DNA from: Burkholderiaceae bacterium
Lineage (GTDB): Bacteria > Pseudomonadota > Gammaproteobacteria > Burkholderiales > Burkholderiaceae_B
Length of the DNA: 64,000 bases
Direction of reading: 5' to 3'
Assembly (NCBI GenBank): GCA_023653055.1
Contig: JAMNXR010000002.1
Location: 1 to 64,000, forward strand
The notes beneath the pieces were generated by a model. The model had not been told where the DNA came from. It made no database searches and saw only the letters and a program-made list of their open reading frames with translations. Both the position numbers and the translations under genes were made by a program. Position 1 is the stretch's first letter. Each line of letters starts with the position of its first letter. Below, one piece after another: positions 1-32,696 of this stretch.

Positions 1-504
1 GGCGTCACGTCATTGACGGTGCCTTGGGAAACTTTGCTGATTTCAACGATTTTGTATGTCGTCTTGCCATTGATCGCGGGTGTATTGACGCGTGAGGCCT
101 TGTTGCGCAAGTCGCCAACCGCAGTCAGCCGTTTTGTGGCGATGCTCAAGCCTTGGTCAATTGTGGGGTTGATCGCGACCGTTGTGTTGTTGTTTGGCTT
201 TCAGGCACGCACGATTGTGGCGCAACCATTAGTGATCGGCATGATTGCGATCCCTTTAATTTTGCAGACGTATGGCATTTTTGCTGTGAGTTGGCTGGGC
301 GCGCGTTGGCTCAAACTACCCCGCGACATCGCTGGACCCGCCTGTTTGATCGGGACGTCAAACTTTTTCGAGTTGGCGGTGGCGGTCGCGATTTCTTTGT
401 TTGGGTTGAATTCAGGTGCGGCGCTGGCCACGGTGGTGGGGGTACTGGTCGAAGTGCCGGTGATGCTTTCGCTGGTCTGGTTACTGAACCGTGGTCGGGC
501 TTGA
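1..504 (+). CDS. acr3: ACR3 family arsenite efflux permease, C-terminal part (5' end outside window)
   Basis: The frame is open from base 1 and ends at 504, giving the last 167 residues of a protein whose family is usually about 340 residues long. The visible part is a run of hydrophobic helices. It includes the stretch [13 protein letters not shown], the ACR3 motif carrying the conserved glutamate of a late transmembrane helix. ACR3 proteins expel arsenite across the inner membrane using the proton gradient. The location a few kilobases from GAPDH-arsJ supports an arsenic role. The start and any upstream arsR or arsC cannot be seen. An ArsB or bile-acid symporter relative is less likely because of the SNFFELA motif. 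Confidence 0.85.
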
Positions 505-1513: not shown

Positions 1514-3001
1514 ATGACATATCGAAATTTTCTCTGGTTCATTTTTGCTGCAGCGTGCGTACGCTTGGTCTTGCTCGGCTTTTCGCCGCTCATGGACACC
1601 ACTGAAGCGCGTTATGGCGAAATCTCGCGCATTATGTTTGAGCTCAATGACTGGGTGACGCCGTGGTTTACCTATGACGTACCGTTTTGGGGCAAGCCTC
1701 CTCTGGCGTTCTGGATCACGGCCATTAGTTTCAATATCTTTGGCGTCAATGAGTTTGCCGCGCGCTTTCCGCACTGGTTGGCGGGCATGGTGGTGCTCTG
1801 GATCCTCTGGGGCATGCGCCCGCGCAGTGGCTCGACGGGGGCGACCTACGCAATCGCTCTGTTACTAGGCTCCGTCATGTTTTTTGTGGCCTCAGGGATG
1901 GTCATGATGGATATGGCCTTGGTGATTGGAACGACCTTGGCGATGCGTGGATTTTGGAATGGTTTGCATGGAGATGAGGCGCGGCGTGGTTCTGAGCGGT
2001 GGCTGCTATTTATAGGTTTAGGGATTTCTTTACTGGCCAAGGGGCCGGTAGGGGTCGTGTTAACAGGCCTGCCTTGCGGAATCTGGGCCTTGGTATCGGG
2101 TAATCTTCGGGTCATCTGGCGTGATTTGCCTTGGATCCGCGGGTTGTTAATGACCGCTGCCATTGCGCTGCCTTGGTATGTGATTGCTGAGTTGCGTTCG
2201 CCTGGCTTTATCAACTATTTCATTGTGGGCGAGCACTTCCATCGCTTTGTTACACCAGGTTGGAAAGGTGACTTATACGGCACGGCACATGTCTTTCCCT
2301 ATGGCACCATTTGGCTGTTCATGATGGCGGATGTGTTGCCTTGGACGATTCTGTTTCCTATTTTGGCTTGGCAGACGCGCGCTTCACGTGCAGAGGTTGC
2401 CACCCCGCACACGCAGTCTATTGAGACGGCCAGCCCCGCCTCTTGGCGCAACTATTTGCTCCTCTGGGCGTTTATGCCAGCGGTCTTTTTTACGATGGCG
2501 GGCAATATTATCTGGCCGTACGTCATGCCAGGCTTACCAGCGTTAGCGTTATTGGTGGGGGGGTGGTTGACCACCCGCGCCAATCAAAATCTGGTGCGGA
2601 TCAATCTGTCGCTAGGTCTGTCGATCACGATGGTGCTCGCGGTGGGTTTTAACGCCAGTATGCCCTTTACTGGTCGCAGCAATGATTTGGCCGCTAAGAC
2701 CTTGATCGAGGACTACCGGACGCGTCAGCCAGAAGGGCTGCCCTTGATTTACTTGGGTCATCGACCATTTTCCGCGTCTTTTTACAGTCAGGGAAAGGCC
2801 TTGCTTGAAAAGACCCCGGAGAGTCTGGCAAAAAAGCTAGAGACGACTCCCGCCTTTGTAGCGATCCGCACATCCAATTTAGCCTACATGCCTCCATCTT
2901 TGCTCGCAGGCCTCGAGCCCTTGAGCAAGCACGGCTACTTTACGTTGTTTCGCCAGAAGAGCGTTTCAGGGGCAGTGCCAGGGTCACCAGCCAGCAAGTG
3001 A
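1514..3001 (+). CDS. GT39/ArnT-like membrane glycosyltransferase
   Basis: About 495 residues, mostly hydrophobic helices. Near the N-terminus, in the first periplasmic loop, is DTTEARYGEISRIM, matching the acidic D-x-E region used by GT-C fold enzymes of the GT39 (PMT/ArnT) family. PFWGKPPLAFW follows, as in ArnT-like proteins. Such enzymes move a sugar from an undecaprenyl-phosphate carrier to lipid A, protein or another acceptor at the periplasmic face. A GTG just before the ATG at 1514 could also start the protein. The 3' end overlaps the convergent arsJ gene by 62 bases. Acceptor and donor cannot be told from sequence, and no arnA/C genes are nearby. Confidence 0.8.
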   Translation: MTYRNFLWFIFAAACVRLVLLGFSPLMDTTEARYGEISRIMFELNDWVTPWFTYDVPFWGKPPLAFWITAISFNIFGVNEFAARFPHWLAGMVVLWILWGMRPRSGSTGATYAIALLLGSVMFFVASGMVMMDMALVIGTTLAMRGFWNGLHGDEARRGSERWLLFIGLGISLLAKGPVGVVLTGLPCGIWALVSGNLRVIWRDLPWIRGLLMTAAIALPWYVIAELRSPGFINYFIVGEHFHRFVTPGWKGDLYGTAHVFPYGTIWLFMMADVLPWTILFPILAWQTRASRAEVATPHTQSIETASPASWRNYLLLWAFMPAVFFTMAGNIIWPYVMPGLPALALLVGGWLTTRANQNLVRINLSLGLSITMVLAVGFNASMPFTGRSNDLAAKTLIEDYRTRQPEGLPLIYLGHRPFSASFYSQGKALLEKTPESLAKKLETTPAFVAIRTSNLAYMPPSLLAGLEPLSKHGYFTLFRQKSVSGAVPGSPASK

Positions 3002-4166
3002 TCAGCATCAAGGCTGAGCCTATCAGCGCATAGAGGAGGCCACCCCATTGATATAACAAACCTGAAAGCAGGGTGCCGATAAAGCGGCCCAAGGCGTTGG
3101 CTGCATAATAAAAACCAACGTCCTCGGCTGCTTTTTCTGAACCGGCATAGGCCAAAACTAAATACGAGTGCACAGAAGAATTCACGGCAAACGCAAAGCC
3201 AAATGCGGCCAAGCCCACGACAACGCCCCATTCGAGATGGCTGACGTCAAGCCACACTAGTAAACACAGCACGACGGTGACCAAGGCAAGGATGGCCGAC
3301 CAGTGACGGGCGGCGGGCACCTCATTGCTCAAGCCGTCTTCACTGCGCCGCACCAGCGAGGGTGCCATCGCCTGCACAAAGCCATAGCCGATTGTCCACG
3401 CGGCGAGAAAGCCGCCCACCATCGTAAACGTCCAGCCTGAAGCGTATAGAAATACGGGCACACCAACGACGAACCACACGTCCCGCGCACCAAACAGCAC
3501 GACACGTGCAGCGGCGAGCAGATTAATGCCACGGTTTTTGGCAAACAGTTCCTTGGCGGATTTGGAGGCTTTGCTTTTTCCCATCATGGGGGGGAGCGAA
3601 AACACGACGCCCACCAAAATCAACGCCAATAGCGCTGCCATGATCCAAAGCGAACCCTGAAAGCCGACCTGATCGAGCAATAGGCCGCCCAGAAAGAAGC
3701 CCACACCCTTCATGGCATTTTTGCTGCCAGTAAACCAAGCGACCCACTTAAATAATTGGCCCGAGGCTTGTCCAGCGGTGATTTTGATAGCGGATTTGCT
3801 TGCGGTCTTGGTCAGGTCCTTGGCCACACCACATACGCCTTGCGCCATCACGACCCAGGCGACGGATACTGCTGCCGTCCATTCGGGTGACAGTGCGGAG
3901 AGCAGCAGAAAGCCGACAATCTGGGTGACTAAACCCACCATCAGCATGCGCGAAATACCAAAGCGCGTGGCTAACCATCCGCCCAGCAGATTGGCGACTA
4001 CGCCAGCAGCTTCGTACAGCAAAAATAGAAAGGCGAGGGCAAAGGGTGAATAACCCAGTCGGTAAAAATGCAGCAATACCAACATGCGCAAGGCGCCGTC
4101 CGTGAGCGTGAACCCCCAGTATGCGGAGGTCACAATGGCATAGTTGCGTGCGGCGTGTGTCGACAT
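2940..4166 (-). CDS. arsJ: ArsJ, organoarsenical (1-arseno-3-phosphoglycerate) efflux MFS transporter
   Basis: A 408-residue major facilitator protein with about twelve helices. Early features are GGWLATRFG (the loop 2-3 MFS signature) and a conserved-looking stretch VCGVAKDLTKTASKSAIK. The gene lies six bases behind a GAPDH gene on the same strand. This pairing is diagnostic: in known ArsJ systems GAPDH makes 1-arseno-3-phosphoglycerate from arsenate and ArsJ expels it, after which it breaks down outside the cell. The function is therefore assigned by family resemblance plus the GAPDH partner. The 3' end overlaps the GT39 gene on the other strand. The operon carries a strong Pho box upstream of its first gene. 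Confidence 0.88.
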   Translation of the reverse strand: MSTHAARNYAIVTSAYWGFTLTDGALRMLVLLHFYRLGYSPFALAFLFLLYEAAGVVANLLGGWLATRFGISRMLMVGLVTQIVGFLLLSALSPEWTAAVSVAWVVMAQGVCGVAKDLTKTASKSAIKITAGQASGQLFKWVAWFTGSKNAMKGVGFFLGGLLLDQVGFQGSLWIMAALLALILVGVVFSLPPMMGKSKASKSAKELFAKNRGINLLAAARVVLFGARDVWFVVGVPVFLYASGWTFTMVGGFLAAWTIGYGFVQAMAPSLVRRSEDGLSNEVPAARHWSAILALVTVVLCLLVWLDVSHLEWGVVVGLAAFGFAFAVNSSVHSYLVLAYAGSEKAAEDVGFYYAANALGRFIGTLLSGLLYQWGGLLYALIGSALMLITCWLVTLALPLKRSSGETT

Positions 4167-4171
4167 GGGGA

Positions 4172-5215
4172 CTAAATACCCTGTGCTTGCATATGGCAGG
4201 CAAGGTCGATCATGCGGCAGGAGTACCCCATTTCGTTGTCATACCACGCGTACACCTTGAGTAGTGTGCCATCGGTCACCATGGTGGAGGGGGCATCTAC
4301 GATGGCGCTACGTGTGTCACCTGCATAATCGACGCTGACTAAGGGGCGGGTTTCGATGCCAAGGATGCCCGCTAGGCTGCCTTGAGCTGCTTGCGTAAAC
4401 AACGCATTGACTTCCTCGACCGTGGTTTCGCGCTTGAGCTCAAACACACAGTCGGTCAATGAGGCATTGAGCACGGGGGCACGGACGGCGTGGCCGTTGA
4501 GCTTGCCTTTTAAATCTGGATAAATCAAGGTGATCGCGGTCGCGCTGCCTGTGGTGGTGGGCGCGAGACTCTGCATGGCGCTGCGGGCACGACGCAAATC
4601 TTTGTGGGGCGCATCGACGACGAGATTGGTATTGGTTGGATCGTGGATGGTGGTGATTTGGCCATGACGAATGCCAATACTTTCGTGGATCACTTTGACG
4701 ACAGGTGCCAGGCAATTGGTGGTGCATGACGCGGCTGTCACGATTTTATTTTGTGTGGTGTCGTAGAGGTGTTCGTTGACACCCACGACAACATTGAGGA
4801 CGTTACCGACCTTGACGGGCGCGGCGACGATCACGCGCTTGGCACCGCGGTCAAAGTGGCCCTGAATGGTCTCAGGGGTCAAAAACTTGCCTGTGCACTC
4901 CAGCACGACGTCCACACCCAAGTCACCCCAGGGGATATCTCCAGGTGCGGCATGCGAGGAAAAGGAAACGGAGCGCTTGCCGATCCTAATGGTGCTGTCA
5001 CCTTCGACCTCGATATCTTCTTTCCAGCGGCCCTGAACAGAGTCAAAAGTCAGCAGATGTGCGGTCGCAGCGATCCCGCCCTTGAGTTCGTTGAGATGGA
5101 CGACCTCGAGCCGATTGTTGCGGCGAGGATCGTCGTCGGGACGATGTGCAGCGCCCAAAGCCGCCCGCAGGGCTAAGCGTCCAATCCTACCCATGCCATT
5201 GATGCCAACTTTCAT
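4172..5215 (-). CDS. gap: ArsJ-associated glyceraldehyde-3-phosphate dehydrogenase
   Basis: 347 residues, slightly longer than a housekeeping GAPDH. The N-terminal NAD site [14 protein letters not shown] is present, as is the active-site cysteine in [11 protein letters not shown] near residue 160 and the late WYDNEMGYS motif. In ArsJ systems this enzyme uses arsenate in place of phosphate to form 1-arseno-3-phosphoglycerate, which ArsJ exports. It is the first gene of a two-gene operon with arsJ. A ribosome site (GAGGATGG) precedes the ATG at 5215. The insertion around residues 26-34 (RPDDDPRRN) makes the N-terminal domain longer than usual. A glycolytic role cannot be excluded, but the gene pair argues for arsenate detoxification. 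Confidence 0.9.
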
Positions 5216-5282
5216 CGCCTATCCATCCTCAATATGTTTACCTTTACGCATCCCATTTATAAAACATTTAGATTGCAAACAC

Positions 5283-5300
5283 ATGACAGTGCGATGACAG
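5283..5300 (-). promoter_or_regulatory. Perfect two-repeat Pho box upstream of GAPDH-arsJ
   Basis: On the minus strand the sequence reads CTGTCATCGCACTGTCAT. This is two exact CTGTCAT heptamers with a 4-base spacer, so an 11-base period, which is the PhoB-binding consensus. It ends 67 bases before the GAPDH start and points toward it. A TATAAA-like element lies between box and start. Binding by PhoB is inferred from the match and from phoB-phoR being in the same window. Confidence 0.8.
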
Positions 5301-5352
5301 GTCACCTCTGTCTCAGGCTATCATGCCCGATTGCTATGTGGAGCCCCGACCA

Positions 5353-6057
5353 ATGAAGCCTTTCGCTTATCTGAATAATTGGCATATTGAGCAACCTGCA
5401 ACCCGTTTTGACCGGGCGATTCGTGACAGTGGTTTGCCGCTGGTTGAGTTTAAAACCAATGTTGGCGAGTTTCCGACCACTACGGATTTTTCGGGGGTGT
5501 TTGTGGGGGCGAGCGTTGCAGGCGCCTACGATCAGGACGCGTGGGTGGCTCAGGCGCATGACTCCGTGCGATTGCTCGCGCATGCCCAAGTGCCGATGCT
5601 GGGTTTGTGTTTCGGCAGTCAGCTGCTGGCCTCGGCCTTGATGGGACATGATCAGGTATTTAAGCGCGGCTCACGCAATACAGGTTATTCAGAGGTGGAG
5701 TTTACGGAAGCCGCCAAGAACGATCCATTGACGCAAGATTTTCCTAAGCTTGTACGTACCTTTCATTGGCATGGCGATGAAATCAAAGCCGATCATCCAG
5801 ATATGGTGATTTTGGCGCGCAATGGCGATTGCGGTAATCAGATCTGGAAATGGCAGCATGGCCCGGTTTGGGGCATTCAGCCTCATCCGGAGATGGACCG
5901 CACACAAATTTGTCAATTTTTGGAAAAAAACCGCGACTGGTTTCTGGCCGAAGGCAAAGACGTCGATGCCTTGATCGCCGGTGCCGAAGAAAACGAACAG
6001 CTTGGTGCGATTTTTGATCGTTTTATGACACTGGTGCGCGCGCAACAGATTGCTTGA
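5353..6057 (+). CDS. Class I glutamine amidotransferase domain protein (GMP synthase-like)
   Basis: About 234 residues. The nucleophile elbow GLCFGSQLLA supplies the catalytic cysteine, and GIQPHPEM supplies the His and Glu of the triad. It is therefore a class I glutaminase-type domain standing alone. The ATG at 5353 has GGAG nine bases upstream; an in-frame ATG at 5323 is possible but has a poorer site. Free-standing members of this family resemble the GuaA amidotransferase domain and have varied, mostly unknown substrates, some being gamma-glutamyl hydrolases. No synthetase partner is adjacent. It lies between the GAPDH promoter region and the convergent DUF2237 gene. Confidence 0.75.
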   Translation: MKPFAYLNNWHIEQPATRFDRAIRDSGLPLVEFKTNVGEFPTTTDFSGVFVGASVAGAYDQDAWVAQAHDSVRLLAHAQVPMLGLCFGSQLLASALMGHDQVFKRGSRNTGYSEVEFTEAAKNDPLTQDFPKLVRTFHWHGDEIKADHPDMVILARNGDCGNQIWKWQHGPVWGIQPHPEMDRTQICQFLEKNRDWFLAEGKDVDALIAGAEENEQLGAIFDRFMTLVRAQQIA

Positions 6058-12878: not shown

Positions 12879-12894
12879 ATTACAAAATTGTTAT
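12879..12894. promoter_or_regulatory. CusR/CopR-type palindrome in the divergent copper promoter
   Basis: ATTACAAAATTGTTAT matches the E. coli CusR site core (ATGACAANNTTGTCAT) at 12 of 14 defined bases, including the full ACAA-NN-TTGT palindrome. It lies between the TolC-like operon (start 12767) and the response regulator (start 12918). One site could serve both directions. Binding is inferred from the adjacent CusR-like regulator. Confidence 0.6.
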
Positions 12895-12917
12895 GTAGCA
12901 AGCAGGGGGATACTCAG

Positions 12918-13601
12918 TTGAAAATACTGCTGATTGAAGACGAACCCAAAACTGGGGATTATTTGCGCCAAGGCTTGCGCGAGGCAGGATTCTCTGTTGA
13001 TCTTGTTCAAGATGGTTTGGATGGCTTGCATCTTGGCATTGAGGGTGGCCAAGATCTCATTATTCTCGATGTCATGCTCCCGCGCATGGATGGTTGGGGG
13101 GTCTTGCAGGCACTGGCGCAGGCAGGTGTCCCCACGCCCGTGATTTTTCTCACCGCGCGCGATCAGGTCGAGGAGCGTGTGCGGGGACTTGAGCTCGGTG
13201 CAGCGGATTACTTGGTGAAACCTTTTTCTTTTGCAGAGCTATTGGCGCGGGTGCGCAATGTGCTGCGACGTGGTAGACCTTCGCTTGAGAGTGCGACTTT
13301 ACAAGTGGCAGACTTGGAGGTTGACGTCATGCGGCGTCGCGTGACGCGGGCAGGGCGTCGGATTGATTTGACACCCAAAGAGTTTGGCTTGCTTGAGTTG
13401 CTGATGCGTCGCCAAGGTGAAGTCTTGCCGCGTTCGTTGATTGCTTCACTGGTGTGGGATATGAATTTTGATAGTGATACCAACGTCATCGAGGTGGCGA
13501 TGCGTAGATTGCGCGCCAAGGTCGATGAGGGATTTGATGTGCGACTGATTCAGACCGTACGCGGAATGGGTTATGTCTTGGACAATGGGAAGTTGGGGTG
13601 A
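12918..13601 (+). CDS. Heavy-metal OmpR/PhoB-type response regulator (CusR/CopR-like)
   Basis: About 227 residues using a TTG start at 12918, preceded by AGGGGGAT at good spacing and giving the classic [20 protein letters not shown] opening. The receiver domain has the phosphorylated Asp in [13 protein letters not shown], Thr in FLTARD and Lys in LVKPFSF. A winged-helix DNA-binding domain follows ([20 protein letters not shown], then [16 protein letters not shown]). This is the CusR/CopR group, which turns on copper resistance genes. Its end overlaps the kinase gene by one base. Confidence 0.9.
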
Positions 13602-21346: not shown

Positions 21347-22429
21347 TTAGTGCACCGCGTATAAGCGTTCAGGTGTCACAAAGTTTTTGCCACGCCGCGA
21401 GAGTAGAGCGGCTTTAATCTGTGCATCAATAGCGGGATCTGTATCGGTGAGTAAGACAGGTTGATAGCCAAGGTGAATGAGCCATTCTTGTAGCTCCCAT
21501 TCGTCGTTCACAATGGGTTCCATAGCTGCACGAAGATAGATGCCGAGCTCCTCTGAGGACTCGCGTGCGAGTTTATAGACACGCGGCAACCATCTTGCAC
21601 ACGCTGCGCCGTGCGGCACACCTTTCAGAAGAGTATCTTCATAAGAGAGGGCATGTACGAGGGCCGTCTCAGTTAAGGCCATCGCTTGACCCGCCCAGAG
21701 CGATGCTTGACTCATTTCAGCTCTGAGAGCAATGTCATGGGGGTGATCAATGAGTCCTGGCAAGGCCCGTGTAATCTGCTGCGCAGCCGACATCGCGAAC
21801 GCAAAGGCCTTTGGCACGCGCTGGAGATTCCAGATTGCTTCTAAAGCGTGGGCAAGGGCATCCACACCGCTATCTCGCGTGACATGCCAGGGCGCCGTGA
21901 GACATAGTTCAGGATCCACAACGGCCCAATCCGCGATGGCGGCGGTGCCATAAAATGAATGTTTAGAACCGTTATCAATATCCCAAAGCGTTGCAGTGGA
22001 AGAAACCTCACTGCCTGTACCTGCTGTAGTCGGCATTAACAAAAGAGGACACGATGCGAAATCATTGATATCACTCGGTTGATCGAGCACGCTTGTAATC
22101 GATACGTTTGGCGCGAGCGTGATTCTCATGGATTTCGCCAGGTCGAGCGTGCTGCCACCACCAATTGCGATCAACGTAGGGACGTCACGCCCTGAGTGAT
22201 GGGTCCAAAAATGCTGTCGCATTTGATCCGCGCGTTCAATGGTCACTAACCCGTCAGGACAATATAGAATTTCCTTCAAACGGGCCCCGAACATGCTGCG
22301 TACTTCTTCTATCAGCTGCCTGCTGGCGTGCGAATGCAAAAGTATCACCACAGAGCGATCGCCGATTAAAGCCGGTATGCTGTGACGTGCACCAATGCTA
22401 AAGGAAATTTCTGGCTTGAGGTCGTTCAT
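21347..22429 (-). CDS. Iron-type (group III) alcohol dehydrogenase
   Basis: 360 residues, typical for the family. The NAD(P) site is GGGSTLDLAKS; TAGTGSEVSSTA follows. Metal ligands are visible: Asp and His in DSGVDALAHALEA, and two more His in ALVHALSYEDTLLKGVPHGA. It should interconvert an alcohol and an aldehyde or ketone. The start overlaps the stop of the metallophosphoesterase gene (ATGA), so it is the third gene of the agt-plcP operon, where its substrate may be a lipid headgroup or a breakdown product. It is shorter at the N-terminus than most relatives, which are around 380. The substrate is not predicted by any motif I can read. Confidence 0.82.
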   Translation of the reverse strand: MNDLKPEISFSIGARHSIPALIGDRSVVILLHSHASRQLIEEVRSMFGARLKEILYCPDGLVTIERADQMRQHFWTHHSGRDVPTLIAIGGGSTLDLAKSMRITLAPNVSITSVLDQPSDINDFASCPLLLMPTTAGTGSEVSSTATLWDIDNGSKHSFYGTAAIADWAVVDPELCLTAPWHVTRDSGVDALAHALEAIWNLQRVPKAFAFAMSAAQQITRALPGLIDHPHDIALRAEMSQASLWAGQAMALTETALVHALSYEDTLLKGVPHGAACARWLPRVYKLARESSEELGIYLRAAMEPIVNDEWELQEWLIHLGYQPVLLTDTDPAIDAQIKAALLSRRGKNFVTPERLYAVH

Positions 22430-23247
22430 ATCGCGAGACCTTCCTCTTCTTCTTGTTCTTGTTTCTTATCAACTTTTGAACGGTAGGGCCAGTGCACGAT
22501 CTTTAATTCACCTGAATTGGTTTCGACAATAGCAGAGAGACTTTCGACCCAATCGCCATCGTTGCAATACAAGATCCCATTAATCTCTCTAATCTCAGCT
22601 TTGTGGATGTGTCCGCACAGGACACCATCAAAGCCACGGCGCTTGGCTTCGTCTGTTAAAACTGTCTCAAACTCCGTGATAAATGAAACAGCATTTTTGA
22701 CACGGTGCTTGAGGTATTGAGAAAGCGACCAATAAGACATGCCAAACTTGTGTCGCAGATGATTAAAGGTATTGTTGAGTTTTAAAATAAAGGTGTAGAG
22801 TGAATCACCTAGGTATGCCAGCCACTTGGCGTGCTTGATGATGCCATCAAATAGATCACCATGCGTGATCCAAATTTTTCTGCCATCCATCAACACATGC
22901 GTGGCTTCATTGACAATCTCTATTTCTCCAAAGGTCATTCCAGTAAAGGAGCGGAGCGCTTCGTCGTGATTGCCCGCGATATAAATGACTTTGGTGCCTT
23001 TTCTGGATTTACGTAATATTTTTTGCACAACATCGTTGTGACTTTGTCGCCAATACCAGCCACGCTTCAGTTGCCAACCATCGATGATGTCGCCGACCAA
23101 ATACAACGTATCAGATTCATTGAACTTGAGAAAATCAACCAGATAGTCGGCTTTGCAGCCAGGTGTACCTAAATGGACGTCGGATATCCATATTGATCGG
23201 TATCGCTCATGACGCTGTTCTGGAGTTGATAATTCATATGAAATCAT
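22426..23247 (-). CDS. plcP: Metallophosphoesterase resembling PlcP-type phospholipase C (often labelled UDP-2,3-diacylglucosamine hydrolase)
   Basis: 273 residues with all five calcineurin-fold motifs: SDVHLGT, GDIIDGW, GNHDE, THGD and GHIHKAE. The segment SDVHLGTPGCKADYLVDFLK, then WQLKRGWYWRQSHNDVVQKI, matches the PlcP group. That group hydrolyses phosphatidylethanolamine and other phospholipids to diacylglycerol in phosphate-starved bacteria. LpxH-like annotation is common for such proteins, but true LpxH is shorter and this one follows a glycosyltransferase gene, the usual PlcP context. It lies 32 bases after that gene, whose end is followed by a CTGTCAT half-site. It is not proven biochemically here. 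Confidence 0.75.
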   Translation of the reverse strand: MISYELSTPEQRHERYRSIWISDVHLGTPGCKADYLVDFLKFNESDTLYLVGDIIDGWQLKRGWYWRQSHNDVVQKILRKSRKGTKVIYIAGNHDEALRSFTGMTFGEIEIVNEATHVLMDGRKIWITHGDLFDGIIKHAKWLAYLGDSLYTFILKLNNTFNHLRHKFGMSYWSLSQYLKHRVKNAVSFITEFETVLTDEAKRRGFDGVLCGHIHKAEIREINGILYCNDGDWVESLSAIVETNSGELKIVHWPYRSKVDKKQEQEEEEGLAI

Positions 23248-23279
23248 GGGCTGTATTATCTCTAGAGAACATGACAGTT

Positions 23280-24509
23280 TTATGTCGGAATGGTGAAGGT
23301 GTCGTGACGTGGGTTGTTTTTTTTAGAATGAATCAGTTCGCAGAAGATTTTTTCGGTTTTGCGGATGATGGCTTCCCACGAATGATGGCGGGCAGTTTCT
23401 GCAGCTGCATGGCCGAGTCCATGTAAAAGGGGTTGATTCATCGTCGTTTCTACGACGGCTTCAATAAAAGCTTGTTCATCCCCAGCTTCAACCGTGATGC
23501 CATTCACCCCGGTGTCGATTAAATCGCCTGCCGCAGCGTGACGATAGGCGACAACGGCCAAACCGCTCGCCATTGCTTCAATGGTGACATTGCCGAAGGT
23601 TTCGGTGAGGCTGGGAAATACAAAAACGTCAGCGCTTGCATAATGCTGGGCGAGATCCGTGCCACGTTTCATTCCAACAAAGATGGCATGAGGGCATTGT
23701 TTCTCTAAGGTGGCGCGTAACGGACCATCCCCCACAATGACAAGTTTGACTGTGGGAGCAATCGCTTGCGCTGCTTCATAACTACGGAGTAAGAGATCCA
23801 GGTTTTTTTCAACCGCTAATCTGCCCACCGAAAGTAAAACGACATCTGACGCGTGCGCGCCCCATGAGGCACGAAGGGATTCTGATCTTAAGTGTGATGA
23901 AAAGTGCGACGTATCAACGCCTCTGGGCATGACTTCTAAATTCAATAACCCCATTGTTTGGAGTTCTTGTTTAAGTTTTGCAGTCGGCACCATTGTTTTG
24001 TTCGTGGCATTATGAATCCAGCGCAAGTAGGCAACAATCAGCGGTTCAATCGCCCCAATTTTGTACATCCCACTGTAGGCATGAAAATTTGTTCTGAAGT
24101 CTGAAGACGTTGGAATACCCAGCTCGCGGGCCGCTCGGACGGCGGACCATCCAAGGGGGCCTTCCGTGGCGATGTGCACGACATCGGGTCGCTTATTTCT
24201 CCAGCGGTTGAGGAGTTTTTGTTTGCAGGGTAAGCCGCCCCGCAGTTCGCGATAAAATGGAATAGGAAAAGATTTCACTAAAAAATCGTTTTCACGGTCA
24301 GCGTTGGATACGTTCGCGTGGTCTGCTGGTTGTTTTGGTCGAATGACACAGACGTGATGCTTGATTTTCCTTAACCCTTTTACCAGCATTGAAACAGTGT
24401 GCGCGACACCATTTACCTCTGGGGGGTAGGTTTCGGTCACGACATCAATATGTAGTGGGGTGTTGTATGTTGGACAATCTATTGTTTTGTCTTGCGTTGT
24501 CTCTGCCAT
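23280..24509 (-). CDS. agt: GT4 glycosyltransferase, Agt/MgtA-like (diacylglycerol glycosyl transfer)
   Basis: About 409 residues from the ATG at 24509 (AAGG upstream; a TTG at 24527 is possible). The N-terminal Rossmann domain opens with TYPPEVNGVAHTVSMLVKGL, typical of MgtA/PimB-like enzymes. The C-terminal domain has SVGRLAVEKNLDLLL and the retaining EX7E motif in ETFGNVTIE. With PlcP, Agt turns diacylglycerol into a glycolipid that replaces phospholipids under phosphate limitation. The gene order agt-plcP-ADH, all on the minus strand with short gaps, supports this. Sugar donor and exact acceptor are unknown. A candidate Pho box lies 44 bases upstream. Confidence 0.78.
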   Translation of the reverse strand: MAETTQDKTIDCPTYNTPLHIDVVTETYPPEVNGVAHTVSMLVKGLRKIKHHVCVIRPKQPADHANVSNADRENDFLVKSFPIPFYRELRGGLPCKQKLLNRWRNKRPDVVHIATEGPLGWSAVRAARELGIPTSSDFRTNFHAYSGMYKIGAIEPLIVAYLRWIHNATNKTMVPTAKLKQELQTMGLLNLEVMPRGVDTSHFSSHLRSESLRASWGAHASDVVLLSVGRLAVEKNLDLLLRSYEAAQAIAPTVKLVIVGDGPLRATLEKQCPHAIFVGMKRGTDLAQHYASADVFVFPSLTETFGNVTIEAMASGLAVVAYRHAAAGDLIDTGVNGITVEAGDEQAFIEAVVETTMNQPLLHGLGHAAAETARHHSWEAIIRKTEKIFCELIHSKKNNPRHDTFTIPT

Positions 24510-24552
24510 CTTGAGTGCCTTATGCAACTAAGACTCACTCTAGTATGGTTGT

Positions 24553-24570
24553 ATAACCATTTGATGACAG
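24553..24570 (-). promoter_or_regulatory. Candidate Pho box before the agt-plcP operon
   Basis: On the minus strand CTGTCAT (24564-24570) is followed after four bases by TGGTTAT (24553-24559), a weak second repeat. The spacing to the ATG is 43 bases. A TTGTCAT heptamer on the plus strand (24588-24594) faces the divergent membrane protein gene. One heptamer per side is perfect or nearly so; the partner repeats are poor, so this is a lower-confidence site. Confidence 0.4.
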
Positions 24571-24685
24571 TGATTGAATTTTTGCTATTGTCATCAGATC
24601 TTAATATTTCACGTTCACGCTATCGTCTAAGGTGGGGTTTTCCTGCTTTTCTTATAATAATTGGCCTTACTTTGTGGAGCCTTAT

Positions 24686-25294
24686 ATGCGAGTACTTTTG
24701 GGACAGCTTTCCGAGCAGCGCTGGGACGACCATCGTCTTTATCACCACAGCCGCATTAATCAAAGCCTGCATTTAATCAGCGCGTTGTCCTTTATTTTTT
24801 CTTATGCAATGTTGTTTATTAACCCAGTGATCGCTTCGTTGGTCGCATGGTCGGTGTCCATGACTACGCGTCAGGCTGGGCATTTTTTCTTTGAGCCTAG
24901 AGGCTATGACTACGTCAACAATATGACGGACGCGCACAAAGAAGAAATCAAAGTAGGCTATAACATTCAACGCAAGATTGTCTTGATGGCGGTGTGGGCT
25001 GCTATTCCAGTGATCGCGTACTTTTCTCCCACCTCACTTATGTGGGCAGTGCCTGCAGAAAACCACCATGATCTAGTCGGTTTGACAGCAATGTGGTGGT
25101 TGTATTTAGGTTTGGGCGGAATGCTGTTCCGTATGTTGCAATTGTGGATTCAGGACAATTATGTCAGCGCCTTAGCATGGGGCCTTAAAATCATGACGGA
25201 TCCTTTTCATGATGTGAAGTTGTATTACAAAGCGCCCTTTCATTTGATGAAAGGGCAGCTGATTGATCCGATGCAGCATGTACATTCAAAGTAA
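24686..25294 (+). CDS. Mpo1/DUF962-like membrane protein
   Basis: 202 residues; the ATG at 24686 has GGAG six bases upstream (a GTG at 24632 is a poorer start). Four or five hydrophobic helices. The segments HHSRINQSLHLISAL and TRQAGHFFFEP resemble the conserved histidine motifs of the DUF962/Mpo1 family (N-terminal H, N and H; later QxxGHxxFE). Yeast Mpo1 is an iron(II) dioxygenase of 2-hydroxy fatty acid alpha-oxidation. If the match holds, this could be a lipid-modifying oxygenase. It lies between the agt operon and the aminotransferase, convergent with the latter by seven bases. The assignment is tentative. Confidence 0.55.
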   Translation: MRVLLGQLSEQRWDDHRLYHHSRINQSLHLISALSFIFSYAMLFINPVIASLVAWSVSMTTRQAGHFFFEPRGYDYVNNMTDAHKEEIKVGYNIQRKIVLMAVWAAIPVIAYFSPTSLMWAVPAENHHDLVGLTAMWWLYLGLGGMLFRMLQLWIQDNYVSALAWGLKIMTDPFHDVKLYYKAPFHLMKGQLIDPMQHVHSK

Positions 25295-25301
25295 TCACGT
25301 A

Positions 25302-26972
25302 TTAATTCAGTCGCGCGCCGAACAAGGTTTTTACCAATTCGCGCGCGACTGAGCGTTTAATGTTTTTGTTTGTTTGCCCCACCGGTGTCCACCACCACCC
25401 ATCTTCACCCATGGCTTGGGCTGCCGCGATAAAGCGACGTGAAAACTCCTCAAAGTCTTCGTCTCTAAAGCCTAAATTAAAAATCATACGGCCCGTGCCC
25501 ACCCAACTCAGGGCAATGCCTTGACGTCTGAGGTAATACTGCAGCATCCAGTTATACCGGCTGGGTACGTCATACAAGACTGTCCACACGGTTGACATCG
25601 ACTCTATTTGCAGTGGAAGGTTTTGTTGTTTCAACTGTTGGTTGAGCTGCTCGCGTCTTGAGATCCACGTCTTATCCAGGCTTGCGTATTGAGCCTGTAT
25701 TTCTGGTCGATCAAGTTCATGCAAAAAGCTATTCATCGCACCCATGACATAGGGATGCGCATTAAAAGTGCCACGTGAGAAACATAAATCTGCAGGACGA
25801 TCTTCACGAGAGCGCTTCATCAGGTCAGCGCGGCCACACAGCACTCCGATAGGAAAACCACCCCCCAAGGTCTTACCGTAGGTCACCATATCCGCACGAA
25901 TACCAAAATACTCTTGCGCGCCACCTCGGGCGAGTCTAAAGCCCATAAATACTTCATCAAAAATCAGGACGATCCCGCGTTCAGTACAGACTTCCCTGAC
26001 AGATTGGAGCCATTGTGTATAGGATTCACGATCATATTGCGCGTTGCGCGACCCATCCACTAGCATGGAGTCTGTCGGGGCAGCGCGATTGGGGTGCATG
26101 GCTTGAATCGGATTAATGAGGACACACGCAATATCACGTCTGCGACGCAGCACCCGCAGGGTATTGGCATGCATGTCGCGTAAGGTCAAGGTGTCCGGGG
26201 ATGGCGGCATCGGATTGCCAGGACCGGGTTGCACATCATCCCACCAGCCATGATACGCACTGGTAAATCTCACGATCTTGTTGCGACGCGTTTGATAGCG
26301 CGCCACTCTGACCGCTTGCATCACGGCTTCAGTGCCTGACATATGAAAGGTGACTTCATCCATGCCGGATAGTTCAGTGATCCGACGGGCATTGTCCAGC
26401 ACGCAAGGATGATAGCCGCCTAAAAGCGGACCCAGGGCATGGACTGTCGCGGAACCTTCTTCGATACATTTTTTATAAAAGTCCTGACCAAACAAGTTCA
26501 CGCCGTAAGAGCCGCTGACGTCGATATAGCTTTGACCATCGAGATCTTTCAACCACACGCCTTGTGTTTCGTTATAGAAGCTTCCAATCGTGAGATTTTT
26601 TTCAACTACAGCGCGAAATTGAAAGGGGACGCGGTAGCGGCTGGTCAACTGAAGGTCTGACAGCATCGTTTTTGCTTGAGCGGTTTGCGCGAGGGAAAGA
26701 GGACTCCTCTCCCGTAAGGTCTGACTCAAGGCCAGAAAGGCACTTTTCCGTTTTGCAACGATTTCCTCGGGGGCATCGTCTATCTCAAGCCATTTTTTTT
26801 CGTCGTAGGCGTAGTAGGGCACGACGCGGGCAAATCGTTTCGCCCACCTTAAGTGCCCCCCCAGTCCTGGAGACTTCGCCAGTGAGAGCTGAAGTCTTTG
26901 TAACGCTACTTTACCGAACCAAATAGCGATGATTGTCACAATTGTGTATTGCAAAAGTAGCAGAATAGTCAT
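25302..26972 (-). CDS. Membrane-anchored class III aminotransferase (HemL-like)
   Basis: About 556 residues from ATG 26972 (a TTG at 27011 would add 13). The first 25 residues are a hydrophobic helix (MTILLLLQYTIVTIIAIWF), followed by about 100 residues not found in GSA aminomutase. From about residue 120 the fold-type I core shows MSGTEAVMQAVRVAR, SAYHGWWD, IFDEVFMGFR and the PLP lysine in MVTYGKTLGGGFPIG. HemL is usually about 430 residues and soluble, so this is a distinct enzyme, likely bound to the inner membrane. Its substrate may be a lipid or lipid precursor, judging by neighbours psd, olsB and agt-plcP. That is inference; it is not a housekeeping hemL by structure or place. Confidence 0.8.
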   Translation of the reverse strand: MTILLLLQYTIVTIIAIWFGKVALQRLQLSLAKSPGLGGHLRWAKRFARVVPYYAYDEKKWLEIDDAPEEIVAKRKSAFLALSQTLRERSPLSLAQTAQAKTMLSDLQLTSRYRVPFQFRAVVEKNLTIGSFYNETQGVWLKDLDGQSYIDVSGSYGVNLFGQDFYKKCIEEGSATVHALGPLLGGYHPCVLDNARRITELSGMDEVTFHMSGTEAVMQAVRVARYQTRRNKIVRFTSAYHGWWDDVQPGPGNPMPPSPDTLTLRDMHANTLRVLRRRRDIACVLINPIQAMHPNRAAPTDSMLVDGSRNAQYDRESYTQWLQSVREVCTERGIVLIFDEVFMGFRLARGGAQEYFGIRADMVTYGKTLGGGFPIGVLCGRADLMKRSREDRPADLCFSRGTFNAHPYVMGAMNSFLHELDRPEIQAQYASLDKTWISRREQLNQQLKQQNLPLQIESMSTVWTVLYDVPSRYNWMLQYYLRRQGIALSWVGTGRMIFNLGFRDEDFEEFSRRFIAAAQAMGEDGWWWTPVGQTNKNIKRSVARELVKTLFGARLN

Positions 26973-27016
26973 ATTTAGAAGTCCGGACAGTGAGACTTCC
27001 TTTTTATACAAATAGA

Positions 27017-27034
27017 ATGACTAAATGATGAAAA
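27017..27034 (-). promoter_or_regulatory. Candidate Pho box before the aminotransferase gene
   Basis: On the minus strand TTTTCAT (27028-27034), four bases, TAGTCAT (27017-27023). Each heptamer matches CTGTCAT at five of seven positions with the right 11-base period. It lies 44 bases before the start at 26972, as in the other sites here. It overlaps the psd start codon on the other strand, so use for psd is unlikely. Confidence 0.3.
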
Positions 27035-27897
27035 TTTCACAATTTATTAGAAAGCTCTTTACAAATGAGGATTTAAACTTCTTACTGACCAACCGTATCC
27101 CGAGACATACTGCAACAGTTTGGATGGGATGGTTTAGCAAGATTGAAATACCTTGGGTTCGAGATCTTTCTATATACGTTTGGCGGATTTTTACGGATTT
27201 AGACCTTTCTGAGGCAAAAAAGCACTCCTTTAAAAGTTTGCATGATTGCTTTGTGAGGGAGTTGCGCGACGGCGCACGCACGATTGATCACAACGATTCG
27301 GTGGTGACGAGTCCGTCTGATGGCATTGTGGGTGAGTGCGGCACCATTATTAACGGTCAGGTGTTTCAAGCCAAAGGTTTTCCCTACAAAATTTCGGAGT
27401 TGATGGGTGATCACGTCGATCCGCAATCGCTTGAGGGAGGGATCTATGTGACTTTACGCCTGACTTCGGCCATGTATCATCGATTCCATGCCCCCTTCAG
27501 CGGCAGGATTGATCGGGTTGTACATCACTCCGGAGATACGTGGAATGTGAACCCTATCGCATTGCGTCGAATTGAAAAACTATTTTGTATGAATGAGCGC
27601 GCCATGATCTCGATGCAGATCGGACCCGCGGCGCACCAGATCTACCTCGTGCCCGTCGCGGCCATACTGGTGGCCAGCATCCGGTTACATGGACTCAATC
27701 TTTTGCTCAATAGTGGCTACCGAGGCAAGCAGACTATCAATTGTGATCTGCCCTGTAAGAAGGGGCAGGAGCTTGGATGGTTTGAGCATGGTTCGACCAT
27801 TATTGTGTTTGCACCACGTGGTTTTAAGCTCGCGCCAGGGATCGAAAATGGCGCGTATGTCAAAATGGGGTGTGCCCTATTTACGCTGCCTGAATGA
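27025..27897 (+). CDS. psd: Phosphatidylserine decarboxylase proenzyme
   Basis: 290 residues, the E. coli-type length. It shows FFVREL-like FVRELRDGARTID, ADG-region SPSDGIVGECG, and the histidine motif MYHRFHAPFSGRID. The self-cleavage site is HGST near residue 255 (WFEHGSTIIVFAP), where Ser becomes the pyruvoyl cofactor. It makes phosphatidylethanolamine from phosphatidylserine at the inner membrane. It is divergent from the aminotransferase gene (52 bases between starts). The 3' end overlaps the convergent olsB-like gene by 17 bases. Whether it is the only psd of the genome cannot be told from the window. Confidence 0.92.
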   Translation: MMKISQFIRKLFTNEDLNFLLTNRIPRHTATVWMGWFSKIEIPWVRDLSIYVWRIFTDLDLSEAKKHSFKSLHDCFVRELRDGARTIDHNDSVVTSPSDGIVGECGTIINGQVFQAKGFPYKISELMGDHVDPQSLEGGIYVTLRLTSAMYHRFHAPFSGRIDRVVHHSGDTWNVNPIALRRIEKLFCMNERAMISMQIGPAAHQIYLVPVAAILVASIRLHGLNLLLNSGYRGKQTINCDLPCKKGQELGWFEHGSTIIVFAPRGFKLAPGIENGAYVKMGCALFTLPE

Positions 27898-28696
27898 GTG
27901 TTTGTGCTTGAAATGTTTGTGCATCAAAACCAAGGCGTTGTTTGTAGCGGGTCGTCATTTCTGAGACCGTGAGCAGCATTGGAAAATCGACTGTATTAAA
28001 GTCAGGATCCCAGGCGGGCTCCCCGCAGACTTTGACCCCCAGTTTTAGATATCCTGCAATTAATGCCGGAATATTGGCAGGTAATTGGGGGTTAACATGA
28101 TCGACCGGGTAGGGGTGAAGAGGTTTTACTCGAAACCCTTCACCTTGATGAACTAAATCGCGTACGCTGCGCCAGACTTCTGCTGCAGTGACGCCATCAT
28201 CTCGCAAGCTTACGCTCGCGCATCCCAGCACATATTGATAGTTGTTCTGTCGAATCAGTTCGGATAGACCGGACCATAACATCATCAGCGTGGGACCACT
28301 TCTGTATTCAGGATCGATACAAGCGCGACCAAACTCGACGGTTTTGTGGCGGATTGTGTTCAGTCCAGAGAGATCAAATTCTGACTCTGAGTAAAAACCG
28401 CCTGCACGGATGGCTTGTTCTGGTCTAAGTATCCTGTACGTGCCAACGACACGCTTGGTGACATGGTCATGCACGAGCAAGTGATCACACCATTGATCGA
28501 ATCTATCTTCATCAATACCGGGTGCGGCAGCATGAAAATTTGCCCCATATTCTTGGCTGAACACATCATGGCGCAGGCGCTGCGCTGCTTTTACTTCTTT
28601 AGCTTTTCTGGCGATACTGACGGTGAGTAATTGTTTCTTTTGTTTATTCTTTTTAATTGCACAATATTTTGATTTTTCGGGGACTTGGATCAACAT
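27881..28696 (-). CDS. olsB: OlsB-like N-acyltransferase (GNAT fold; ornithine lipid synthesis candidate)
   Basis: 271 residues. The pattern RLRHDVFSQEYGANF, then VGTYRILRPEQA and FGRACIDPEYRSG, is that of OlsB and related acyl-ACP-dependent acyltransferases, and of the autoinducer synthase-like fold. OlsB joins a 3-hydroxyacyl chain to ornithine, the first step of phosphorus-free ornithine lipids. The partner OlsA is not in the window. Three 11-base-spaced Pho repeats lie 55 bases upstream, agreeing with phosphate-starvation control. The N-terminus is Lys-rich (KKNKQKKQ). Other amino acids (Gly, Lys, Gln) are possible acceptors. Confidence 0.75.
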   Translation of the reverse strand: MLIQVPEKSKYCAIKKNKQKKQLLTVSIARKAKEVKAAQRLRHDVFSQEYGANFHAAAPGIDEDRFDQWCDHLLVHDHVTKRVVGTYRILRPEQAIRAGGFYSESEFDLSGLNTIRHKTVEFGRACIDPEYRSGPTLMMLWSGLSELIRQNNYQYVLGCASVSLRDDGVTAAEVWRSVRDLVHQGEGFRVKPLHPYPVDHVNPQLPANIPALIAGYLKLGVKVCGEPAWDPDFNTVDFPMLLTVSEMTTRYKQRLGFDAQTFQAQTLIQAA

Positions 28697-28750
28697 TGCC
28701 TTAGATCTCCGTAGATTGCCGACATGATCAAAGATTCGGATGTCAGTTCT

Positions 28751-28779
28751 ATGACAGTTTGATGAAGAATTGATGACAA
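28751..28779 (-). promoter_or_regulatory. Three-repeat Pho box before the olsB-like gene
   Basis: On the minus strand TTGTCAT (28773-28779), TCTTCAT (28762-28768) and CTGTCAT (28751-28757) are each separated by four bases, giving an 11-base period. The first and last are near-perfect heptamers. The block ends 54 bases before the start at 28696. Confidence 0.65.
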
Positions 28780-28783
28780 GGTG

Positions 28784-28801
28784 CTGTCATACGCATGTCA
28801 T
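28784..28801 (+). promoter_or_regulatory. Pho box before phoX
   Basis: CTGTCAT (28784-28790), ACGC, ATGTCAT (28795-28801): 13 of 14 consensus bases at 11-base spacing. It lies 63 bases before the phoX start and is back to back with the olsB-side repeats, so one PhoB-bound cluster may serve both genes. Confidence 0.75.
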
Positions 28802-28864
28802 GTTTTCTGTGTGTACTCATTCATAGGTTTCAAATATGATGCGTAACACGCTTAGGTGTAAAAG

Positions 28865-31108: not shown

Positions 31109-31116
31109 CCCCTGCG

Positions 31117-31134
31117 CCGTCATCAAACTGAAAT
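31117..31134 (+). promoter_or_regulatory. Candidate Pho box before phoU-phoB-phoR
   Basis: CCGTCAT (31117-31123), CAAA, CTGAAAT (31128-31134): six of seven and five of seven matches at 11-base spacing. It sits 82 bases before the phoU start, just after the phoX stop. It suggests that phoUBR has its own PhoB-controlled promoter. Confidence 0.45.
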
Positions 31135-31216
31135 ATTGAATGGTTAACGTGTCGTGTATATTGACCTCAGTGGGTTGTTCGCCCGATATGGGTGGCATTA
31201 GATAACAGGAATTTTC

Positions 31217-31924
31217 ATGGCTGACAAACATCTTTCGTCGCAGTTTGATACGGATCTCAACGCTCTTTGCAGCAGTTTGCTGGAAATGGGTGGAATGGTC
31301 GAAGTTCAGATCATTGACGCGATGCGTGCGTTTTCAGAGATGAATATCGAGCTGTGCAAAGAAGTGGTTGATCGTGAAAAGGCGATCAACACCAAAGAAA
31401 TTGAGATTGACTTAGCATGTGCTGAAATCATCGCGCGCAGACAACCTACCGCAAGAGATCTGCGTCTTGTGATGGCCGTCTCCAAGGCGATTACCAATCT
31501 TGAGCGCGCTGGTGACGAGGTTGAAAAGATTGCAAAGCGTACGCGACGTATTATTCGCAGCGGAGCTGAGCACAAAATCAATGTCGCGGAGATCATCATT
31601 TCTGGTCAATTGGCTGTAAAGCAACTGCGTCAGAGTCTGGATGCCTTTGCGCGCCTCGATCGCGAAGCCGCAGTGGATATCGTCCTGGATGACCGCCAGA
31701 TCGACGAAGAATTTCGAGCATTCGTTCGTAAATTGACATCCTACATGACAGAAGATCCACAAACGATCGCGACAGGTTTGGACATGCTGACGATCGCGAA
31801 ATCGATCGAGCGCATTGGCGATCACGCCAAAAACATCGCTGAGTTTGTGATTTATGTGGTGGGCGGTGAGGATGTCCGACATTCCCCCAAGAGCGAGTTA
31901 CAAAAACGCGCTTCTGAGGAATAA
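31217..31924 (+). CDS. phoU: PhoU phosphate signalling regulator
   Basis: 235 residues, the normal length. It has the two three-helix halves, with the repeated metal-binding pattern: EKAINTKEIEIDLACAEIIA in the first and DRQIDEEFRAFVRKL in the second, plus LERAGDEVEKIAKR and IERIGDHAKNIAE. PhoU restrains PhoR when phosphate is plentiful and normally communicates with the PstSCAB transporter. In this window pstSCAB is absent upstream, where phoX lies instead. phoB starts seven bases after its stop. Confidence 0.95.
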   Translation: MADKHLSSQFDTDLNALCSSLLEMGGMVEVQIIDAMRAFSEMNIELCKEVVDREKAINTKEIEIDLACAEIIARRQPTARDLRLVMAVSKAITNLERAGDEVEKIAKRTRRIIRSGAEHKINVAEIIISGQLAVKQLRQSLDAFARLDREAAVDIVLDDRQIDEEFRAFVRKLTSYMTEDPQTIATGLDMLTIAKSIERIGDHAKNIAEFVIYVVGGEDVRHSPKSELQKRASEE

Positions 31925-31931
31925 GCGAGCT

Positions 31932-32669
31932 ATGAGTCATCGAATTCTGATCGTTGAAGACGAAATCTCTATTTCTGAGCTGATTGCGATCAATCTGACC
32001 CATGCAGGTTATGAGGTTCAGCAAGCATTTCAAACTGAAGAAGCCAACCTCAAGATGCGGGAGTCGCTTCCTGACATGATGATCTTGGACTGGATGCTAC
32101 CAGGTAAGTCTGGTGTGCATTACGCCAAAGAGTTGCGTGCCAATGAGCGTACCGCAGGCATTCCAATTTTGATGTTGACGGCCAAGAGTGAAGAGGCCGA
32201 CAAGGTTCAGGGTCTGGATGCCGGTGCGGACGACTATATGACCAAGCCATTTTCCACTAAGGAATTGGTCGCTCGGGTCAATGCGCTATTGCGGCGTCAT
32301 AGTCGCGCGCCGACGAATGACGATTTGATGGTACTAGGTGCTTTGCGGTTGGATCCTGTCACCCATCGCGTCACCGCAGAGTGGCCGGGGTCGCCTCGCC
32401 GAGAAATTATCGTTGGACCGACTGAGTTTCGATTGTTACAGTTTATGATGGGTGCACCTGAGCGCGTCCATTCTCGTGCCCAGTTACTGGATCAAGTGTG
32501 GGGTAACGAGGTGTTTATCGAAGAGCGTACGGTCGACGTTCACATCAGAAGATTGCGCGTCGCTTTGGCGGTCGCAAAGTGCGATGTATACATTGAAACA
32601 GTGCGAGGTGTTGGCTATCGTTCGACGCGTCAACCTTCGGCTGTATCCTCGGACAGCGACCATTTGTAA
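31932..32669 (+). CDS. phoB: PhoB phosphate response regulator
   Basis: About 245 residues from ATG 31932. The receiver opens MSHRILIVEDEISISELIAI, with the phosphorylated Asp in MMILDWMLPGKSG, Thr in MLTAKSEE and Lys in YMTKPFS. The winged-helix domain has GPTEFRLLQFMMGAPERVHS and RTVDVHIRRLRVAL, whose recognition helix matches PhoB. It binds Pho boxes, several of which are seen in this window. It is followed by phoR 27 bases later. Confidence 0.95.
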   Translation: MSHRILIVEDEISISELIAINLTHAGYEVQQAFQTEEANLKMRESLPDMMILDWMLPGKSGVHYAKELRANERTAGIPILMLTAKSEEADKVQGLDAGADDYMTKPFSTKELVARVNALLRRHSRAPTNDDLMVLGALRLDPVTHRVTAEWPGSPRREIIVGPTEFRLLQFMMGAPERVHSRAQLLDQVWGNEVFIEERTVDVHIRRLRVALAVAKCDVYIETVRGVGYRSTRQPSAVSSDSDHL

Positions 32670-32696
32670 TCGATTATTTCGAAACGGTATGCATGT

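Follow-up and report, generated by a model that had tools for sequence, protein, structure and literature searches.

The window, a stretch of 64,000 nucleotides, carries near its left end two adjoining genes on the minus strand, one for a glyceraldehyde-3-phosphate dehydrogenase (GAPDH) of the ArsJ-associated type and one for ArsJ, an organoarsenical efflux protein of the MFS type. Both proteins score above the curated cut-offs of their family models (Table 1), so that the identity of the GAPDH-arsJ operon, proposed earlier in a reading of the sequence alone (the sequence-only reading), is upheld. The closest named relative of the GAPDH is from Zwartia vadi IMCC34845 (91%). A gene for a class-I glutamine amidotransferase (5353-6057, plus strand) diverges from the GAPDH gene and lies beside GAPDH in four of the five closest loci, L186 being a second copy of the L111 contig. 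The C-terminal part of an ACR3 arsenite pump is found at 1-504 (plus strand), truncated by the contig edge, and the N-terminal part of ACR3 stands at the end of another contig (C1, 3,051 bp). Since the two halves occupy two contig ends, the arsenite pump is probably located about 2.4 kb from arsJ. No arsR was seen by eye among the open reading frames of contig C1, and a Pho box ahead of this acr3 was rejected, the best score being 5.0 and on the wrong strand.

Table 1. Genes and sequence elements of the window that bear on the GAPDH-arsJ promoter
Feature	Position	Strand	Evidence or remark
ArsJ-associated GAPDH gene	4172-5215	-	NF033735.1, 542.3 bits, cut-off 450
arsJ, organoarsenical efflux MFS gene	2940-4166	-	NF033734.1, 526.6 bits, cut-off 400; 5 bp past GAPDH
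Pho box half-site 1, CTGTCAT	5294-5300	-	consensus matched exactly
Pho box half-site 2, CTGTCAT	5283-5289	-	11-bp period with half-site 1
Pho box half-site 3, TTGCAAT	5272-5278	-	degenerate; 11-bp period kept
-10 hexamer, TATAAA	5256-5261	-	10 bp past half-site 3
Likely ribosome-binding site of GAPDH, GAGGA	5226-5230	-	spotted by eye in the sequence
phoB, proposed activator	31935-32669	+	TIGR02154, 307.5 bits, cut-off 296.2
phoR, sensor kinase of PhoB	32697-33992	+	TIGR02966, 410.9 bits, cut-off 334.2
Pho box before OlsB-like N-acyltransferase gene (27881-28696)	28740-28757	-	motif scan, 1 mismatch
Pho box before PhoX phosphatase gene (28865-31108)	28784-28801	+	motif scan, 1 mismatch; gene PF05787, 406 bits
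Pho box before metallophosphoesterase gene (22426-23247)	23271-23288	-	motif scan, 2 mismatches

The intergenic region upstream of GAPDH contains an exact Pho box, CTGTCAT-N4-CTGTCAT (5283-5300, minus strand), which is separated from the start codon (5215-5213) by the 67 bases from 5216 to 5282. The two heptamers (5300-5294 and 5289-5283), their 11-base spacing and their orientation towards GAPDH are as the sequence-only reading had described them, and two elements absent from that reading can be added, a third half-site and a -10 hexamer. On the minus strand the order is CTGTCAT, CGCA, CTGTCAT, GTGT, TTGCAAT, CTAAATGTTT, TATAAA, 40 bases and the GAPDH start codon. The third half-site, TTGCAAT, matches the Pho consensus weakly and is identical in the window and its four closest orthologues (alignment of five sequences). 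When half-sites 2 and 3 are taken as the promoter-proximal box, the 18-bp box is followed after 10 bp by a -10, as in the phoA promoter. Escherichia coli Pho promoters of the phoA/pstS class likewise carry CTGTCAT-like repeats of 11-bp period where a -35 element would stand, and in phoA the -10 lies about 10 bp downstream of the box; they drive phosphate acquisition, whereas the promoter in the window precedes detoxification genes. A search of 2900-5400 for a sigma-70 consensus promoter with a -35 of its own came back empty, which is weak evidence given a shuffle average of 1.2, and an Rfam scan of the window returned nothing at gathering scores. With repeats of 11-bp period, a box over the -35 region that faces the gene and a -10 at fixed spacing, the segment 5256-5300, third half-site and -10 included, is by its sequence a PhoB-type promoter.

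PhoB and PhoR are encoded in the same window, as had been claimed, and both pass the cut-offs of their models (Table 1). No solved structure is near the window PhoB at E ≤ 1e-60, and the structure matches at 1e-35 are four other OmpR-family regulators. In the draft genome (2.84 Mb, 30 contigs, 95% complete) the box at 5283-5300 is the sole exact copy, against 0.02 expected for 14 fixed bases on both strands at equal base frequencies. Three sites have one mismatch, two of them inside the window; sites with up to two mismatches number 23, compared with 6 for a reversed-pattern control, and several of the weak matches fall within genes. Within the window there are 14 sites with up to three mismatches (shuffle mean 5.7). 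Boxes with two mismatches precede pstS-like and phnD-like genes, named by reading their translations. As the CTGTCAT motif also stands before the phoX, OlsB-like, pstS-like and phnD-like genes, this organism very likely uses it as its Pho box.

Alignment of the window with its four closest orthologues reveals a footprint in which 25 of the 45 columns from box to -10 are invariant, compared with 4 of the 80 columns upstream and 2 of the 55 columns downstream. Recurrence of the box was followed in two sets of loci. The first comprises 101 GAPDH-arsJ loci, 33 from a family survey (all those above the cut-off, sub-cut-off fragments being left out) and 68 others from a phylum survey, in which 88 genomes exceeded the cut-off; the window's own and these 68 were used and 19 left out, a roughly score-based and non-random selection. 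The second consists of 80 named loci that partly overlap the first, reduced to 79 when L241 was dropped for too little upstream DNA. The surveyed genomes may be incomplete. Scoring relied on a matrix of eleven half-sites from other Pho genes of this genome, the arsJ promoter excluded; being built from one genome, the matrix misses degenerate boxes. Each region was compared with its own dinucleotide shuffles, and p ≤ 0.02 was counted, with p ≤ 0.025 on the gene strand for labels and p ≤ 0.06 for the named spacing set.

Of the stretches before GAPDH in the 101 loci, 20 score at p ≤ 0.005 and 32 at p ≤ 0.02 (0.5 and 2 expected), and 29 of these 32 boxes face GAPDH. The 79 named regions give 21 and 34 at the same thresholds, 33 of the 34 facing GAPDH. 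As a control, 451 regions upstream of other genes in these loci were scored, 204 having been excluded because regions shared with GAPDH contaminate the set; they yield 14 at p ≤ 0.005 and 27 at p ≤ 0.02, with 16 of the 27 facing the gene; this rate exceeds the nominal one partly because other Pho genes, pstS-like ones included, are among the controls. A FastTree tree of 170 rows, made after removal of 10 named loci on duplicate contigs, places the window in a clade of 76 rows, mostly Burkholderiales by record title. The search for Pho boxes before GAPDH-arsJ in other Burkholderiales, suggested as a check by the sequence-only reading, found a box in 50 of these 76 rows (p ≤ 0.025, right strand) and in 10 of the other 94 rows of the tree. 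The rows are related, with at least 26 changes of Pho state and 14 independent pairs on supported branches. Box-positive loci make up 14 of 26 in the window's genus and all seven in a second genus of the family. Of the 12 loci of the window's genus that fail p ≤ 0.025, three are directly preceded by arsR, and some of the rest contain degenerate boxes, seen by eye only. The named box holders include Limnohabitans, Hydrogenophaga, Acidovorax, Rubrivivax, Rhodoferax, Malikia, a Polynucleobacter MAG and the isolate LSUCC0115.

The spacing of the -10 provides a test that draws on bases outside the box. Across the 50 box-positive clade rows the mean -10 score, computed with assumed base frequencies, is +3.02 at spacing 10, compared with -3.79 (sd 0.47) at random offsets and -6.49 to -2.31 at the other 25 spacings. 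The best -10 among spacings 5-19 lies at exactly 10 in 33 rows and at 11 in six (3.3 expected each); in the five rows with three half-sites counting began at the second box, formed by half-sites 2 and 3, a decision taken post hoc. Named rows outside the window's genus have the same peak, +2.59 at spacing 10 and -1.47 at the next best (n = 33, box p ≤ 0.06). Sixteen control regions with boxes score -1.28 at spacing 10, still their best spacing, as would be expected if some control boxes are real Pho promoters. Models of the PhoB-polymerase complex, in the excerpted text of PMC10294691, back strict spacing requirements. Box orientation, -10 spacing, the motif before other Pho genes, the footprint and the recurrence thus give computational support to the PhoB control proposed in the sequence-only reading, and it is highly probable that the GAPDH-arsJ operon is a direct PhoB target activated at low phosphate. 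We infer that PhoB would occupy the promoter, that low phosphate would induce the operon and that the operon would confer arsenate resistance.

The earlier remark that no arsR is seen between 505 and 5215 holds in the list of open reading frames examined by eye, in a PF01022 search and in a search with an ArsR protein, and no arsenic-type ArsR was found across the 95%-complete draft genome. PF01022 matches two places in the genome, an ArsR/SmtB gene at 56979-57314 (minus strand), its sole match in the window, and part of a 581-aa frame on contig C14. Since PF01022 barely detected the known ArsR of genome G265 (22.5 bits), the ArsR protein query, taken from a sister locus with the order arsR-gapdh-arsJ, is the better test. 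Its sole match in the window's genome is 56994-57272 at 26%. The same query found matches at 99, 83, 61 and 42% in G265, G255, G240 and G252, respectively, and one distant gene each in G000, G251, G253 and G267 (26-28% identity). The ArsR/SmtB gene scores 84 bits with the general ArsR/SmtB model (cut-off 55) and 105.6 bits with BigR, the nearest specific model, which is under the cut-off of 155. By eye it adjoins YeeE/YedE-like and persulfide dioxygenase-like genes, and it seems likely that it controls sulfur rather than arsenic genes.

The relatives display three promoter designs. The first, a PhoB box with no arsR in the searched flank, is found in 31 of the 50 box-positive clade rows, the flanks varying in length and some stopping at a contig edge; it includes the five-row clade of the window and the box-positive rows of its genus. 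The second, a PhoB box with a downstream arsR, accounts for 19 of the 50, and Hydrogenophaga is among the relatives with a downstream arsR. The gene order in this design is gapdh-arsJ-arsR in 16 rows, with a further upstream arsR in two, and gap-arsR-arsJ in L230, where the order is perhaps an overlap of ORF calls. A palindrome, TTC[AG]A-N6-T[TC]GAA, derived here from the relatives and regarded as a putative operator, is found no more than 120 bp before the start in 17 of the 29 clade rows with a downstream arsR versus 6 of the 47 without (Fisher p 6e-5, a statistic that ignores the kinship of rows). It is present in 13 of the 19 rows of the second design, 11 of them with the palindrome at offset 15 after the box, which is the last base of the -10, and two (L207 and L261) with it at offset 26. 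These composite promoters, in which a Pho box, 10 bp, a -10, the palindrome and a downstream arsR follow one another, are those of L118, L192, L197, L198, L202, L204, L207, L209, L217, L230, L238, L245 and L261. Such a promoter is probably a PhoB-and-ArsR gate, with the putative ArsR operator blocking a PhoB-dependent promoter.

In the third design arsR lies directly upstream, mostly without a box before GAPDH, and this is seen in 43 of the 94 rows outside the clade and 4 of the 76 inside. An adjacent upstream arsR occurs in 46 of 110 box-negative rows versus 1 of 60 box-positive rows (raw Fisher p 7e-10), an association that loses significance when only independent pairs are compared (median p 0.25; about 3 of 14 informative). 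Pho-like boxes were found at p ≤ 0.02 before 8 of 75 arsR genes in arsR-led operons, six of them facing arsR, L105, L251 and L264 being loci where such boxes precede the arsR of an arsR-led GAPDH-arsJ operon; the excess is weak, and a few cases, L105 and L264, look convincing.

The composite promoters raise the question of dual control in the window as well, whereby PhoB would activate the operon and a trans-acting arsenic-responsive repressor, missed in the draft or of another family, would gate it. The frequency and the fixed position of the palindrome beside downstream arsR genes in relatives are in favour of this reading, as is G240, whose GAPDH is 93% identical and which encodes an ArsR elsewhere, its 61% match to the query containing one stop codon; the draft is only 95% complete, and the ArsR/SmtB protein of the window passes only the general metalloregulator model, so that its ligand is not certain. 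On the other hand, the 120 bp before the window GAPDH lack the palindrome, as do three of the four closest orthologues, the remaining one having a looser match only, and the ArsR query retrieved nothing beyond one distant gene in each of G000, G251, G253 and G267. Dual control is considered unlikely here. In the window's clade, PhoB is the only regulatory input visible from sequence.

The divergent amidotransferase gene shares the intergenic region and its place beside GAPDH is kept in most of the closest loci, and the box could in principle serve it rather than GAPDH. The direct repeats, however, face GAPDH, the -10 at spacing 10 is on the GAPDH side, L110 has the box but no amidotransferase match, and the searched flanks of the other loci gave none either, all of which makes this assignment very improbable. 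OmpR-family regulators bind direct repeats of about 10-11 bp, and another member of the OmpR/PhoB family might use the site, for instance the response regulator at 12888-13601, which looks by eye like an OmpR-family protein. The heptamer, however, is the E. coli PhoB consensus (PMC4415409, in excerpt) and matches the sites before the phoX, pstS-like and phnD-like genes of the genome, which leaves little room for a different regulator. That the repeats are a chance match without function is hardly credible, for although weak boxes are common, with several of the 23 sites of up to two mismatches inside genes, this one is exact, unique in the genome, set in a promoter, conserved amid diverged flanks and recurrent across the clade with a fixed -10 spacing.

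Direct activation by PhoB, the preferred reading, would proceed as follows. When phosphate is scarce, PhoR would phosphorylate PhoB, and PhoB dimers would then bind the tandem half-sites at 5300-5272 (minus strand), over the -35 region. Once bound, PhoB would bring sigma-70 RNA polymerase to the -10 hexamer (5261-5256). The GAPDH would turn arsenate that has entered via the induced phosphate transporter into 1-arseno-3-phosphoglycerate, which ArsJ would export. The conversion and export step is taken from work on Pseudomonas aeruginosa DK2, Halomonas GFAJ-1 and Vibrio cholerae (PMC5930303, PMC9601151 and PMC6205960, all in excerpt). Because arsenate uses phosphate transporters, cells short of phosphate should take in more of it from the same arsenate level, and they would probably arm against arsenate when phosphate uptake is hardest. 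Where related Burkholderiales have the putative operator and a downstream arsR, expression would probably require activation by PhoB as well as release of ArsR. A wider scheme, which we put forward tentatively and at somewhat less than even odds, is that the operon is switched on in Burkholderiales primarily by phosphate starvation, with the Pho box as its old core promoter, to which ArsR was added as a veto (gapdh-arsJ-arsR, with the operator overlapping the -10); the arsenic sensor would have been dropped in the window's clade, where lack of phosphate would be the only cue by which the operon anticipates arsenate.

The literature searched, which is thin on subscription journals, yielded no case of arsJ being controlled directly by PhoB, and the excerpts of PMC9846622 (Nodularia) and PMC12607644 (a Bacillus review) do not describe PhoB binding at arsJ. 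The gapdh-arsJ genes of P. aeruginosa DK2 and the var operon of V. cholerae, arsR-varG-varH-arsJ, encode the same GAPDH and ArsJ families, presumably with the same chemistry. The window differs in having a Pho-box promoter and no local arsR; in V. cholerae, arsJ is under ArsR control (PMC9601151, in excerpt). A link between PhoB and arsenite oxidation is already published: in Halomonas sp. HAL1, PhoB binds a Pho box at the arsenite oxidase genes aioBA, a box that is 56% identical to the consensus and lies on the antisense strand at -21 to -3 (excerpt of PMC4563254). The likeness to the window is a Pho box at an arsenic gene and a connection between phosphate and arsenic, with PhoB binding in HAL1 and predicted binding in the window. 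The HAL1 genes serve arsenite oxidation, whereas those of the window serve arsenate efflux and have an exact consensus in a promoter-spaced box. PMC7533571 reviews the relation of Pho to arsenite oxidation, and PMC3834237 and PMC4415409 mention it, as far as their excerpts go.

Phosphate limitation raises the same gene pair in the cyanobacterium Nodularia spumigena, with log2 values of 1.57 and 2.41 for GAPDH and of 0.29 and 1.20 for arsJ in the first two table columns of PMC9846622, a response that in the window is predicted. In the excerpted text of that paper most arsenate-related genes lack a strong response, the authors see no conserved P-box and the locus tags run in the order arsR, sphX, GAPDH, arsJ. 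The arsB gene of Crocosphaera is induced by phosphate starvation (cited in the excerpted text of PMC4284471).

A detoxification operon triggered by phosphate shortage would be a case of predictive regulation, a response to risk and not to the poison, and arsJ in Burkholderiales would perhaps be partly a phosphate-stress gene. The presence of three designs in one gene family (PhoB only, PhoB with ArsR, and ArsR-led) makes two-signal integration testable with reporters. As the carriers include Limnohabitans, Hydrogenophaga and one Polynucleobacter MAG, this control may bear on how arsenic cycles in fresh water with little phosphate.

Several further features were seen in the course of the survey. 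The loci of the second genus (L108, L109 and L112-L115) have Pho boxes and, directly after the -10, a different palindrome like ATTTCGATAATTATCGAAAT, which is imperfect in L112-L115; no ArsR was found in their searched flanks. In a distant family (f33; L139, L159, L167 and L173), repeats such as CTGACATGATGCTGACAT lie before GAPDH and are followed by a stretch like ATCCGCATATCAGGAT; they may be Pho boxes or sites of a different regulator. A pstS-like gene is present in the searched flank of GAPDH-arsJ in 9 of 181 loci (L112, L194, L207, L229, L231, L233, L235, L247 and L261). In the window itself, a phosphate-stress cluster extends over 22426-33992 and comprises genes for a metallophosphoesterase, which we take to be PlcP-like, a GT4-type glycosyltransferase, the OlsB-like acyltransferase (155.7 bits with the OlsB model, under the cut-off of 350), PhoX, a PhoU-like protein (by eye), PhoB and PhoR. 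The Pho boxes of the OlsB-like and PhoX genes are arranged back-to-back between them, and the cluster looks like one for membrane-lipid remodelling at low phosphate.
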